Positions 47,293-50,518 of a DNA stretch of 64,000 nt are shown here, one piece after another; the first letter of the stretch is position 1; the number at the start of each line of letters is the position of its first letter. Source of the stretch: Aestuariibaculum sp. M13 (lineage in GTDB: Bacteria; Bacteroidota; Bacteroidia; Flavobacteriales; Flavobacteriaceae). Location: NCBI RefSeq assembly GCF_024723255.1, contig NZ_JANIAC010000003.1, forward strand, positions 124,001 to 188,000. Reading direction: 5' to 3'. A model generated the notes under the pieces. That model saw nothing but the letters and a program-made list of their open reading frames with translations, was not told where the DNA came from and did not search any database. Position numbers and translations under genes: made by a program.

Positions 47293-48692
47293 TATATCGT
47301 ATCTTTTAAGAAGTTAGCAAACTTCAAAACAAGTTCGTCATTCGTTTTTGCGGCTGTGATTTGTAAGCCTGTTTCGGTGCCTTGCGGAACCGTTAAAGTT
47401 GGTAATTGGCCAAGACTAAATCCAACTGTGTATGCATCGCTTAAATACATGGCGTGCGGATCTTTTAAGCTATTTCCAATTTCTGGAGGTGTGCTTGGTG
47501 TTACCGGTGATAAGATAATGTCAACATCTTTAAAATCATCTTCAAAGTTTTCTGAAATCGCATCGCGAAGCGCTAAACTTTTTAAGTAGATTTCATCTGA
47601 AAACCCTTGCGATAGTACCTGGTTTCCACCAACAATTCTTCGTTTAGTTTCTTCTGAAAAATTCTCAGAACGGGTAACCGCGTACGATTCTTTTAAGTTT
47701 TTATCATCAATACGGTTACCGTAGTTACTGCCATCTAAACGCGATAGGTTAGAGGCGGTTTCTGCCATGGCCAATGTATAATAGGTAGACACCAAAATAT
47801 CAGACTGAAAGAAATCCAGTTCTTTAACTTCGATACCTTTGGCTTTAATTTTTTCAATAGTACTTAAAAAGTCCGATTTGATTTTCGGATCAATTGCGTC
47901 ACTTTCAATAAAGTTTTTAAAATAACCTACTGATTTAATTTCAGAAGCATCTGTAATGCTATCGGCGGTAATTTCCGCGGAAGTGTAAGTAGTTTGATCC
48001 TTTACATCTTTACCACTCATTACGTTTAAGACGATACGTATATCTTCAACTGATTTGGCGATAGGTCCAACACAATCTGTTGACGAAGCATAGGCCATAA
48101 GTCCGTAGCGCGAAATACGTCCATAAGTGGGTTTTAGTCCGTAAACATGGTTGTAACCTGCTGGTTGACGTACCGACCCTCCGGTATCGCCACCAATAGA
48201 AAATACAGTATAATCTTTCGCTACATTTACAGCCGAACCTCCACTGGAACCACCGCCTACAAGGTCTGGGTTAATGGCATTTTTAACCGATCCGAAAATA
48301 GTGTTTTCACTTGACGAACCGTGACCAAAACTATCACAGTTTTCTTTTACCAAAGGAATAGCGCCAGCATCCAGTAATTTTTGAATTGCTGTTGCGGTGT
48401 ACGCCGATTTGTAGTTTTTAAGTAAATCGGAACTCGCCGTGGTAGTTGTGCCTTGCAGCATGTAAACATCTTTAATACCAAAAGGAATCCCTTCCAACAA
48501 TCCAATAGTTTCACCATTTGCAATTTTGGCATCGACTTTAGAGGCTAAATCAAGGGCTAAATCCTCTAAAGTGGAATTTACCGTGTTATGGGTGTTAGCT
48601 TTTAAAGCGCTTAATTTTTCAGTAACCAGAGCAACACAGGATATCTCTTTGTTTGCCAGTTGCTGGTGAATTTTATGTATTTGAGAGTCCAT
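47292..48692 (-). CDS. gatA: Asp/Glu-tRNA amidotransferase subunit A
   Basis: 466 residues of the amidase-signature family. The Ser-Ser-Lys triad is visible: Lys in GIPFGIKDVYML, Ser in GGGSSGGSA and Ser in GGDTGGSVRQPAGY. It releases ammonia from glutamine for amidation by GatB. The segment NCDSFGHGSSSENT differs from the usual DEFAMGSSTENS. Somewhat divergent but complete. It shares one base (TAATG) with the downstream gatB-aspS gene and is three bases after gatC. Confidence 0.93.
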   Translation of the reverse strand: MDSQIHKIHQQLANKEISCVALVTEKLSALKANTHNTVNSTLEDLALDLASKVDAKIANGETIGLLEGIPFGIKDVYMLQGTTTTASSDLLKNYKSAYTATAIQKLLDAGAIPLVKENCDSFGHGSSSENTIFGSVKNAINPDLVGGGSSGGSAVNVAKDYTVFSIGGDTGGSVRQPAGYNHVYGLKPTYGRISRYGLMAYASSTDCVGPIAKSVEDIRIVLNVMSGKDVKDQTTYTSAEITADSITDASEIKSVGYFKNFIESDAIDPKIKSDFLSTIEKIKAKGIEVKELDFFQSDILVSTYYTLAMAETASNLSRLDGSNYGNRIDDKNLKESYAVTRSENFSEETKRRIVGGNQVLSQGFSDEIYLKSLALRDAISENFEDDFKDVDIILSPVTPSTPPEIGNSLKDPHAMYLSDAYTVGFSLGQLPTLTVPQGTETGLQITAAKTNDELVLKFANFLKDTI

Positions 48693-48695
48693 ATG

Positions 48696-48965
48696 TTATT
48701 CTTCTATAATTTTAGAAACTACTAAGTAGCCTTTTTTCTCTTTCGGGAAGTTTTCAATAATAATTTGCTTTTCGGTTGCAGAACTTTCAATCACTTCGTC
48801 TTCTCTTAAATCGTCTAAGGACACGCAATTATTACGATTATTATTAAAAGAGGTATTATTTGTTGCCTGTGCATTTTTAATTACATCAAATAATTTGTTC
48901 ACAGCCTCGCTGGGTTGTGCTCCTTTAATACTCGACAGGATGTCGACGGTCATAATTTTACTCAT
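48696..48965 (-). CDS. gatC: Divergent GatC subunit
   Basis: 89 residues from the ATG at 48965 (in-frame alternatives upstream would run through the terminator hairpin). The C-terminal half, SLDDLREDEVIE then GYLVVSKIIEE, matches the GatC tail that wraps GatA. The N-terminal half does not look like normal GatC helices and holds an Asn-rich stretch (residues 36-46 contain seven Asn, NNTSFNNNRNN). The identity relies on the tail and on gene order. Confidence 0.75.
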   Translation of the reverse strand: MSKIMTVDILSSIKGAQPSEAVNKLFDVIKNAQATNNTSFNNNRNNCVSLDDLREDEVIESSATEKQIIIENFPKEKKGYLVVSKIIEE

Positions 48966-48984
48966 GTCTAATAAATTTTCGGTT

Positions 48985-49017
48985 AAAAAAAAGCCTTCCG
49001 AACTCGGAAGGCTTTTT
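48985..49017 (-). terminator. Attenuator terminator in the gatC leader
   Basis: Minus-strand hairpin AAAAAGCCTTCCG / CGGAAGGCTTTTT (13-bp stem, AGTT loop) followed by T8, ending 20 bases before the gatC ATG. No minus-strand gene ends nearby (the next is 236 bp away), so its position is that of a leader attenuator. Its left arm CCTTCC (49006-49011) can instead pair with GGAAGG at 49038-49043, giving an antiterminator. Confidence 0.9.
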
Positions 49018-49031
49018 ACATATATTTTAAA

Positions 49032-49066
49032 CAATAACCTTCCTGTCCTAACTTTTAGGATTATTG
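49032..49066 (-). promoter_or_regulatory. Alternative RNA structures of the Asn attenuator
   Basis: Region 1, CAATAATCCT (49057-49066), overlaps the last Asn codons and can pair with region 2, AGGTTATTG (49032-49040, one bulge). Inside it TCCTAA-AAG-TTAGGA is a perfect small hairpin. If region 1 is covered by a stalled ribosome, region 2's GGAAGG is free to pair with CCTTCC at 49006-49011, the left arm of the terminator. Confidence 0.75.
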
Positions 49067-49095
49067 AAATTATTATTGTTGTTAATTACTGTCAT
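49048..49095 (-). CDS. Asn-rich leader peptide of the gatCAB/aspS operon
   Basis: Fifteen codons, MTVINNNNNFNNPKS, ATG at 49095 to TAG at 49048. Seven of 15 codons are Asn (AAC AAC AAT AAT AAT, Phe, AAT AAT). The ATG follows an A-rich stretch, as is normal in this phylum, and lies 17 bases after a near-ideal promoter. The frame is too short for ordinary gene calling. It is read as an Asn-tRNA sensor because the operon makes Asn-tRNA and because terminator and antiterminator structures follow. Confidence 0.85.
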   Translation of the reverse strand: MTVINNNNNFNNPKS

Positions 49096-49112
49096 TTTTA
49101 TTTATTCGTTCT

Positions 49113-49142
49113 CAAATATATAGAGAATAAACATACTATCAA
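49113..49142 (-). promoter_or_regulatory. Promoter of the gat operon leader
   Basis: Minus-strand TTG at 49142-49140 and TATATTTG at 49120-49113, separated by 19 bases, a full match to the Bacteroidota -33/-7 consensus. Transcription should start near 49107. Confidence 0.8.
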
Positions 49143-49252
49143 CATTTTTTTTAAGGATACACTAAGGTATTATCGATTTGTTAAAAAAGTTAAAAATAAT
49201 TTATTGTTTATATAACGAAACTGGTGTTTGTGTTTAATTTTTAAAAATGGGT

Positions 49253-50518
49253 TTAATGAAACGAAATTTGATATTGAAGAACTGCCATACCTTTATAGTC
49301 TTTTTGTTCTAAAGTTGTGGCATCAAAAATAGGACGGTGCTGATATCCTAAACTTATTTTGTTGTCATGAGAGCCATTGATAAGAAAGTTTACGGTAAAA
49401 TCATATACGGTCATGTTATCATTTAAAGCATCCCAGTTAGAATGTTGCACAGCAATATTTGGTTGAATAACTGTTGGGAGATTTAAAATTTGTGCCTCTT
49501 TAAAAGCATAACCAAATTGTCCATACCAGGTAGTTCCTGTTCCAATCATTGGGAATGCAACCCCAGAGCCGTTAAAGTCAGTGCCGCCGCCAGTAGTTGG
49601 GTTGTTAGCGCCAACATTTCGGATGTAGTCTTTACCAAAATCGTAATCGAAATACCCTAGGTATGCTGTAATAGCATTGCCATTTGAAAGCGGAAGATTT
49701 AAAAAAGAATCGGCTGCAAAATGAGTAATGTCGTAAATGTTGGTTTCCTCAAGGTTGGCATCGCCGTCGCTCATCGCTTCCGGTTGATATTGAAATCCAG
49801 CACCTATATTAAATACTTTTTTCTTTTGAAGGTAGGTGCCAGTCTGGTAAGCCGATTTGTTCGATTCATGATCAAAGAATTGGTATTTTACATAAGCTGA
49901 AGTTTTTACTCGGGGTTTGTTGTTAGCAAAGTTGACAGAGCCATTCGGAACGTTTTTTACATAAAAGGGTCTGTTAAACGTCATTCTGTAATCAAAATTT
50001 CCAGCCTGACCTTTAACCCAAAGTCCAAATAAACGTCCAATATCATCATTAATTTCAACAGAGTTTAACGTAAACAGAGGAGAGTCTAATCCCATTAAAG
50101 TTTTACTGGAACGAATATTCCATCTGTTTAAACCTTGCCAGCCCGATTTTCCAAAGCCAACCTCAAAATATTTTGCAAAAGAATATTCTACATATAAATC
50201 TAAGATGCCAATAGGGAAGTCATCGCCTTTAAAATTGTAATTGTTACCGCCAAACATACCATAAGCATATATTTTTGGTGTTATTTGAGCAGATATAGGA
50301 ATGCGTAATCTGCGAATAGAAATATCAAAAAAATCAGAAGTAGGTTCTCCGTGAATTTCCGAGCCGTCATTTAAATCGGAATATCTAAGCCAGAATTGAG
50401 AGGTAATGTTCCAGTTAAAGGTAGGTTTGAATTGTTCTGTCTCTTGACTTAGTATCGTTGCAGGGAAAAATAGAGAGAGTAAAAAGCAATAGACTAAGGT
50501 TTTGTTTTTAATTTTCAT
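49253..50518 (-). CDS. Porin-like outer-membrane beta-barrel protein
   Basis: 421 residues. Signal peptide 1-24, then a barrel pattern with alternating aromatic residues (FWLRYSDLNDG, IRRLRIPISAQITPKIYAYG, GMAVLQYQISFH at the end). It resembles the Bacteroidota phosphate-selective-porin-like group, but the substrate is not evident. No terminator seen downstream; its transcript could read into the gat leader. Confidence 0.75.
   Translation of the reverse strand: MKIKNKTLVYCFLLSLFFPATILSQETEQFKPTFNWNITSQFWLRYSDLNDGSEIHGEPTSDFFDISIRRLRIPISAQITPKIYAYGMFGGNNYNFKGDDFPIGILDLYVEYSFAKYFEVGFGKSGWQGLNRWNIRSSKTLMGLDSPLFTLNSVEINDDIGRLFGLWVKGQAGNFDYRMTFNRPFYVKNVPNGSVNFANNKPRVKTSAYVKYQFFDHESNKSAYQTGTYLQKKKVFNIGAGFQYQPEAMSDGDANLEETNIYDITHFAADSFLNLPLSNGNAITAYLGYFDYDFGKDYIRNVGANNPTTGGGTDFNGSGVAFPMIGTGTTWYGQFGYAFKEAQILNLPTVIQPNIAVQHSNWDALNDNMTVYDFTVNFLINGSHDNKISLGYQHRPIFDATTLEQKDYKGMAVLQYQISFH

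Follow-up and report, generated by a model that had tools for sequence, protein, structure and literature searches.

An Asn-codon leader ahead of gatC-gatA-gatB::aspS in Flavobacteriaceae: a probable ribosome-mediated attenuator of tRNA-dependent asparagine synthesis

Introduction

What does a short reading frame crowded with Asn codons do for the genes behind it, when those genes appear to make asparagine on tRNA? The question arises in a 64,000-nucleotide stretch of the Aestuariibaculum sp. M13 genome (the window), in which such a frame lies before gatC, gatA and a gatB::aspS fusion on the minus strand. An earlier note, made from these letters alone, had proposed an attenuator of the trp and his type that responds to low Asn-tRNA(Asn). 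We have now read the strand directly, compared the leader among relatives and folded it with a modelled ribosome in place. In all likelihood, the leader acts as a ribosome-mediated transcription attenuator, sensing the supply of Asn-tRNA(Asn) and controlling gatC-gatA-gatB::aspS for tRNA-dependent asparagine synthesis. The cell very probably gauges its asparagine supply by the ribosome's passage through the Asn codons.

In the mechanism that we propose, RNA polymerase would start near 49107 and make a short leader, on which a ribosome would begin at 49095. When Asn-tRNA is plentiful, the ribosome would reach the TAG stop codon and cover arm 2, whose GGAAGG lies 4 nt downstream; arms 3 and 4 would then pair, the terminator would form and transcription would end. 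When Asn-tRNA is scarce, the ribosome would stall in the Asn run and cover arm 1, so that arm 2 could pair with arm 3 and the polymerase would read into gatC. Termination, read-through, the response of both to Asn-tRNA and the biochemical role of the operon are what we infer from the observations set out below.

Results

Elements of the leader

On direct reading of the minus strand, to which all window coordinates here refer, the positions that the earlier note had given for promoter, leader frame, arms and terminator all hold. The promoter consists of a -33 element, TTG (49142-49140), and, 19 nt 3' of it, a -7 element, TATATTTG (49120-49113), which we take to be of the Bacteroidetes TAnnTTTG type; the start of transcription would lie near 49107. 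The -7 box is found 5' of the frame in 62/62 leaders, as TATATTTG in 45 and as TATCTTTG in 17. The -33 element also begins a match to TTGATA-N16-TATATT (10/12), but a sigma-70 pattern scan gave 23 sites against 26.8 expected, and the promoter by itself is not above chance. Its support comes from conservation in 62/62 leaders and not from the pattern score.

The leader peptide frame, MTVINNNNNFNNPKS, runs from ATG (49095-49093) to TAG (49050-49048), with 15 codons of which seven are Asn, as first described. Arm 1 (AACAAUAAU..UUUC, 49080-49066) lies within the Asn run and extends into the Phe codon, and it pairs with arm 2. It had been placed over the last Asn codons; it is in fact formed by the middle ones together with UUUC at the Phe codon. 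A small hairpin, UCCUAA/UUAGGA (49060-49046), surrounds the stop codon, as seen both in the fold and in pairing over 61 rows. Arm 2 (GGAAGGUUAUUGUU, 49043-49030, with GGAAGG at 49043-49038) starts 4 nt 3' of the stop and shows few changes. Arm 3 (CCUUCC, 49011-49006) is common to the antiterminator (2:3) and the terminator (3:4), in which its partner is arm 4 (GGAAGG, 48999-48994). Arms 3 and 4 belong to an intrinsic terminator (49017-48985) with a 13-bp stem, AAAAAGCCTTCCG/CGGAAGGCTTTTT, and a run of eight T (48992-48985), five of which lie inside the stem. Here too, regions 2, 3 and 4 and the terminator with its T8 are as the first reading had them. By sequence and by folding, terminator and antiterminator are mutually exclusive.

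The 111-nt RNA from the ATG to the T run folds into the 1:2 arms, the stop-codon hairpin and the terminator at -32.4 kcal/mol, compared with -14.55 (sd 3.19) for shuffles (z -5.60; 0/200 as low). Shorter leader transcripts fold as 1:2 or as 2:3.

The leader in relatives

A GatA search of named genomes supplied loci for comparison, of which the best 80 of 232 relatives were taken. The device lies 5' of gatC in 43/80 loci and is missing from 36; L039 has too little upstream DNA. A conserved Asn-rich frame and hairpin, on which the original proposal had staked itself, thus exist before gatC in relatives. The leader peptides have 14-16 residues, 7-10 of them Asn (for example, MTNNNNNNFNNPNF). We also built a covariance model of the leader (R1) and ran it on 397 genomes of the family. 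Strong matches (E <=3.4e-13) were found in 37/397, the window's own genome included, and all of those whose context we examined (36/36) lie before gatC, with 79-108 nt from the start of the stop codon to the gatC start. Some of the R1-matched genomes duplicate named loci and are not independent; the counts given here use 62 leaders, with 61 distinct rows.

At E <=0.05 the model matched 297/397 family genomes, most of them plainly too weakly. Eight matches that we examined, ranking below the 37 among the matches listed, proved to be five ordinary terminators (one at E 3.2e-7) and three other leaders, two with Trp codons before trpE and one with Ile/Val codons before ilvD, with no Asn leader among the eight. 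In 395 genomes of the class, searched with stricter filters, the window's own genome alone matched at E <=1e-5. The GatC type of this operon occurs in 8/294 other class genomes, all from one other family, and no Asn leader was seen by eye within 420 nt 5' of gatC in those eight loci.

The loci without the device keep the operon in 36/36 assessable cases, with no replacement seen: the 350 nt scanned held no terminator-like hairpin (0/36), and an unrelated frame with at least four Asn turned up in 3/36. The switch is therefore dispensable in places, and these 36 loci provide a natural comparison between regulated and unregulated operons. A quick GatA tree (codon positions 1 and 2) calls for eight changes of the leader or more. 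Because well-supported branches force just four changes and the root is unknown, we make no claim that the leader was present ancestrally. Separately, the gap between terminator and gatC, usually 20-25 nt, is about 187 nt in L070 (3543-3728) and 116 nt in L079 (3614-3728), implying that extra DNA entered there between the terminator and gatC.

Selection on the Asn codons

We numbered codons from the conserved Phe codon, which puts codons -5 and -6 outside arm 1. Asn stands at -5 in 58/62 leaders, encoded by AAC in 29 and AAT in 29, and at -6 in 55/62. Base changes were taken as minimum counts on the GatA tree with 43 rows. The third base changed 12 times at -5 and 11 times at -6, and the first and second bases together 4 and 6 times, respectively; at -5 the third base switches between C and T only, whereas -6 has A as well. 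The untranslated sites beside the start codon changed 9-19 times each over the same 43 rows. The third bases of these two codons therefore vary like their untranslated neighbours while Asn is kept, which argues that the frame is translated and selected as Asn. A translated Asn run should change in this way; an RNA kept purely for its structure should not.

In 61/62 leaders the closest ATG upstream is in frame; the exception, L171, has a possible GTG start in the alignment. The stop is TAG in 62/62 and, on a strict recount, lies 3-5 nt from arm 2 in 62/62. Modelled on that spacing, a ribosome terminating at TAG would cover arm 2.

Pairing of the arms and rival explanations

In an alignment of the 61 distinct rows that was fitted to 1:2, the stop-codon hairpin and 3:4, and so favours their percentages, these are paired in 98.9%, 95.6% and 92.3% of cells, respectively. 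The departures from 1:2 are 30 wobble or similar one-sided changes versus 9 broken cells. The innermost pair of the stop-codon hairpin is broken in 16/61 rows; the terminator lacks one outer pair in 45/61 and has its loop-closing pair altered on both sides in 22/61. The antiterminator, which lies outside the fitted model, is paired in 99.6% of cells, and arm 3 shows no change on the tree. As a control, sliding the columns by 1-3 left 43.7-64.5% paired for the fitted set and 35.0-86.1% for 2:3. Covariation over the whole structure is above that of shuffles. For 2:3 there is none (500/500 shuffles equal it), since these arms are almost invariant. We therefore reject covariation as proof: the arms are too conserved, and 2:3 is without any. 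The earlier note had looked to joint variation of the Asn run and arms in relatives. What the alignment reveals there is conservation of the Asn run, arms, frame, stop, promoter and spacing, but only slight covariation proper, because the arms hardly vary. Reading and comparison together establish an Asn frame that behaves as translated and selected, with conserved arms, stop position, promoter and gene context.

The end of the peptide is conserved. Phe is found in 62/62 leaders, the next two residues are Asn in 62/62 and Pro follows in 61/62; on the 43-row tree no base of codon +1 or +2 changes, and codon +3 has one change. The near-invariance of codons +1 to +3, which lie outside arm 1, is not explained by the main fold. 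It would suit an arrest peptide, whose N-F-N-N-P end would stall the ribosome on a signal that is not Asn-tRNA, leaving the Asn run a secondary role. However, most of this constancy is explained by the bases: UUUC pairs with GGAA of arm 2, and CCUA with UAGG. In an alternative register, moreover, AAUAA.CC (49065-49058) pairs with GGUUAUU of arm 2 (49039-49033) in 99.1% of cells, though with no covariation, and this may be the reason for the near-invariance of codons +1 to +3. Codons -5 and -6, away from the motif, keep Asn. An arrest peptide therefore seems to us very improbable.

Could the device instead be a plain constitutive terminator that lowers operon expression, with the Asn-rich frame there by chance in an AT-rich genome? 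AT-rich DNA does readily yield short Asn-rich frames. We scanned both strands of the 64 kb for an ATG frame, 8-30 codons long, that contained six Asn or more, for a terminator and for a competing copy of a terminator arm. The window gave one frame at each step, the gatC leader; the same scan on 60 dinucleotide shuffles gave 52 frames at step one, none of which had a terminator, and 0 at steps two and three. The leader arrangement is far beyond chance. An Asn frame and a terminator are found together in 39/43 loci with the device and in 0/36 without it, and the frame is kept with mostly synonymous changes, all of which makes the plain terminator scarcely credible. A metabolite- or tRNA-binding riboswitch (T-box-like, for example) with an untranslated frame would have a precedent in the T-box control of this pathway by tRNA(Asn) in Clostridium acetobutylicum, described in passages of PMC4052509, but it is hardly tenable in the face of codon-level selection in the leader frame, of no Rfam family above its gathering score in 48600-49500 and of the absence of the T-box from the 19 Rfam matches at E <=10 in that interval.

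Ribosome position and folding

If the leader is an attenuator, the position of the ribosome should decide between the two structures. We folded the 62 leaders up to arm 3 with the ribosome footprint held unpaired. When the ribosome stood on Asn codons -5 to -1, P(2:3) was 0.99-1.00; the antiterminator formed for every A-site position between codons -5 and +4 (means 0.99-1.00, and 0.96 or more with the case of no ribosome included). P(2:3) dropped to 0.15 at the last codon and to 0.00 at the stop. By a looser measure, P(2:3) with the ribosome at the stop was 0.07-0.22 as the footprint edge was varied between +14 and +10, and between 1 and 5 of the 62 leaders reached 0.5 or more. The E. coli trp leader, by the same looser measure, gave 0.05 with no ribosome, 0.34 at Trp10, 0.70 at Trp11 and 0.05 at the stop.

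With no ribosome, P(1:2) was 0.95 in transcripts not yet extended to arm 3; in those that include it, 2:3 beats 1:2 at equilibrium in 61/62 leaders. The proposed logic of 1:2 and 3:4 against 2:3 is thus upheld by folding insofar as a ribosome at the stop gives the terminator and one on the Asn codons gives the antiterminator, but 1:2 loses when no ribosome is present. Because 2:3 then wins, the 1:2 part must act kinetically or else count for less than in trp, and an untranslated leader may, unlike that of trp, be read through. P(1:2) falls to 0.13 with the ribosome on codon -4 but only to 0.81 with it on codon +2, implying that the early Asn codons would be the sensors, if 1:2 matters. Since 2:3 forms from codon -5 to +4 and also without a ribosome, folding gives the Asn run no special place. 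What it shows is the importance of position; the ground for taking Asn supply to set this position is the codons.

The operon and its probable role

The gene behind the leader encodes a divergent GatC of 89 aa (48965-48696), assigned by its place before gatA and by matches to TIGR00135 (E 6.6e-5) and Pfam GatC (E 0.0023) that are both below cut-off. The predicted protein has an Asn-rich linker of its own, NNTSFNNNRNN, and similar stretches occur in relatives. It is followed by gatA (48692-47292; Pfam Amidase, E 1.1e-110), for which the best NCBIfam model, TIGR00132 gatA (E 3e-128), is below its cut-off, and by gatB::aspS (47292-43957), an 1111-aa fusion with GatB_N, GatB_Yqey, OB-fold, class II synthetase core and GAD domains. 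At the matching place, 30/30 genomes have an open frame of 1116-1126 aa, as expected of a fusion. A second, stand-alone AspRS, about 40% identical, is also found in 30/30, in two pieces in G127. The joining of GatB and AspRS in one protein, with a separate AspRS elsewhere, raises the possibility of a covalent Asn transamidosome.

AsnRS was present in 30/30 of the genomes searched and GlnRS in 29/30, with none found in G127. GatCAB with a fused AspRS is therefore best read as serving asparagine synthesis on tRNA, beside AsnRS and GlnRS. The GatA, GatB and AspRS domains fit genes that would make the sensed aminoacyl-tRNA, an activity that we infer from those domains. That these genes make Asn-tRNA(Asn), as originally suggested, agrees with the domains, but with AsnRS in 30/30 and GlnRS in 29/30 genomes the operon would do more than charging.

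His in an R-D-H-G motif marks a non-discriminating AspRS. The fused AspRS has this His (74 motif matches over 80 loci), and the stand-alone enzyme has Lys in its place in 4/4 read. The tRNA(Asn) carries U1-A72 in 7/7 copies read (one per genome; nine genes were found in seven genomes), a pair that, according to passages of PMC4206432, bacterial GatCAB requires.

AsnA was found in 0/30 genomes searched. Full-length Asn_synthase frames, counted by eye, are found in 7/19 genomes with the leader (the window's own, G000, included) and 5/11 without it, and no tie between the leader and asparagine synthetase genes is evident. The window's genome has two putative Asn_synthase-family matches near each other (G000:C1:376745-378524), one of them full-length, so the operon may not be the sole route to asparagine there.

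Discussion

If this attenuator works as we propose, asparagine joins the amino acids that are read by ribosome-mediated attenuation, and that mechanism is found attached to tRNA-dependent amino-acid synthesis, for which the literature consulted gave a single regulatory device, the T-box of Clostridium. The leader ahead of the GatB-AspRS fusion would be a compact, natural reporter of how much Asn-tRNA(Asn) is available, and through it both asparagine synthesis on tRNA and its measurement there become directly testable.

How much of this is new? The titles and abstract openings of the open-licence PMC papers listed yielded no Asn-codon attenuator and no GatB-AspRS fusion. The earlier note's remark that it knew of no described Asn-codon attenuator on a gatCAB/aspS operon therefore stands for those titles and abstracts, but T-box control through tRNA(Asn) is known. 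Provisionally, the mechanism is of a known kind, and its Asn specificity and its gatCAB-aspS target appear undescribed within that literature; regulation of the pathway by tRNA(Asn) is already known, and it is the device itself that appears to be new.

A bolder reading, which we offer tentatively and think doubtful, is that this is the first Asn-specific ribosome-mediated attenuator and that it has two registers. Arm 2 would take as its partner either AACAAUAA, in the early Asn codons, or AAUAA.CC, in the last ones, giving graded outputs for early and late stalls. With the antiterminator winning in the absence of a ribosome, the switch would be ON by default, opposite to trp, and the tRNA-bound product of GatB-AspRS would feed back on its own gene.

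The attenuator that we favour, with Asn-tRNA(Asn) supply as its signal, belongs beside trp; his and pheST are further ribosome-mediated attenuators of amino-acid operons. Like the trp type, it has a leader peptide with many copies of the regulatory codon, arms that pair as 1:2, 2:3 and 3:4, an intrinsic terminator and a stop codon placed such that a terminating ribosome would cover arm 2. In masked folding, stalled and terminated ribosomes give the same outcomes as in E. coli trp. It differs from the trp type in its Asn codons, in its target, an operon for tRNA-dependent synthesis, and in the extra hairpin around the stop codon; and, unlike in E. coli trp, 1:2 here loses to 2:3 at equilibrium without a ribosome. 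The best Rfam match, RF01859 Phe_leader, reaches 32.7 bits, below its 55-bit gathering score, and has Phe instead of Asn codons.

A second comparison is with the transamidation operon of Clostridium acetobutylicum, whose T-box riboswitch was reportedly the subject of work by Saad et al. in 2012 and 2013. Passages of PMC4052509 describe this riboswitch as sensing tRNA(Asn) and also tRNA(Glu). On that account, the kind of operon and the sensing of tRNA(Asn) are shared with our locus; the T-box, unlike our leader, binds tRNA directly, also reads tRNA(Glu) and belongs to Firmicutes.

The enzymes resemble those of Deinococcus and Thermus, which, in the passages of PMC4206432 drawn on here, have AsnRS, GlnRS, GatCAB and an additional, archaeal-type AspRS, and make asparagine on tRNA beside AsnRS. 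The same combination is found in our genomes, but here the additional AspRS is bacterial-type with GAD and is fused to GatB. Those passages name Bacteroidetes among the genera with AsnRS, GlnRS and GatCAB and no Asn synthetase, and, among those 18 genera, credit only Deinococcus-Thermus with the additional AspRS. The NCBIfam model NF009460, an AspRS-GatC bifunctional protein, likewise joins AspRS to a GatCAB subunit, the partner here being GatB.

Finally, attenuation of this class has parallels close to home. For Flavobacterium psychrophilum, passages of PMC9723704 give clues for leader-peptide attenuation before amino-acid operons, among which those passages do not name gatCAB-aspS. In two other genomes of the family, Trp-codon leaders with a terminator lie just 5' of a trpE-like gene: MKNNNTHTWWWNLRNALSQ in L175 (1305-1425, minus strand), where the best model for the gene is trpE (E 1.2e-116, below cut-off; frame cut by the locus end), and MKNNNTHIGWWKLRNALSQ in L179 (1237-1354, plus strand). 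L181 (1300-1413, plus strand) has an Ile/Val-rich leader, MKRNLINIIAVVIIVIISQ, and a terminator about 310 nt before an ilvD-like gene, whose best model is dihydroxy-acid dehydratase (E 6.7e-133, below cut-off; frame cut by the locus end). Judged by these putative leaders, relatives in the family use the same attenuator class elsewhere, with a Trp leader before trpE and an Ile/Val leader before ilvD.
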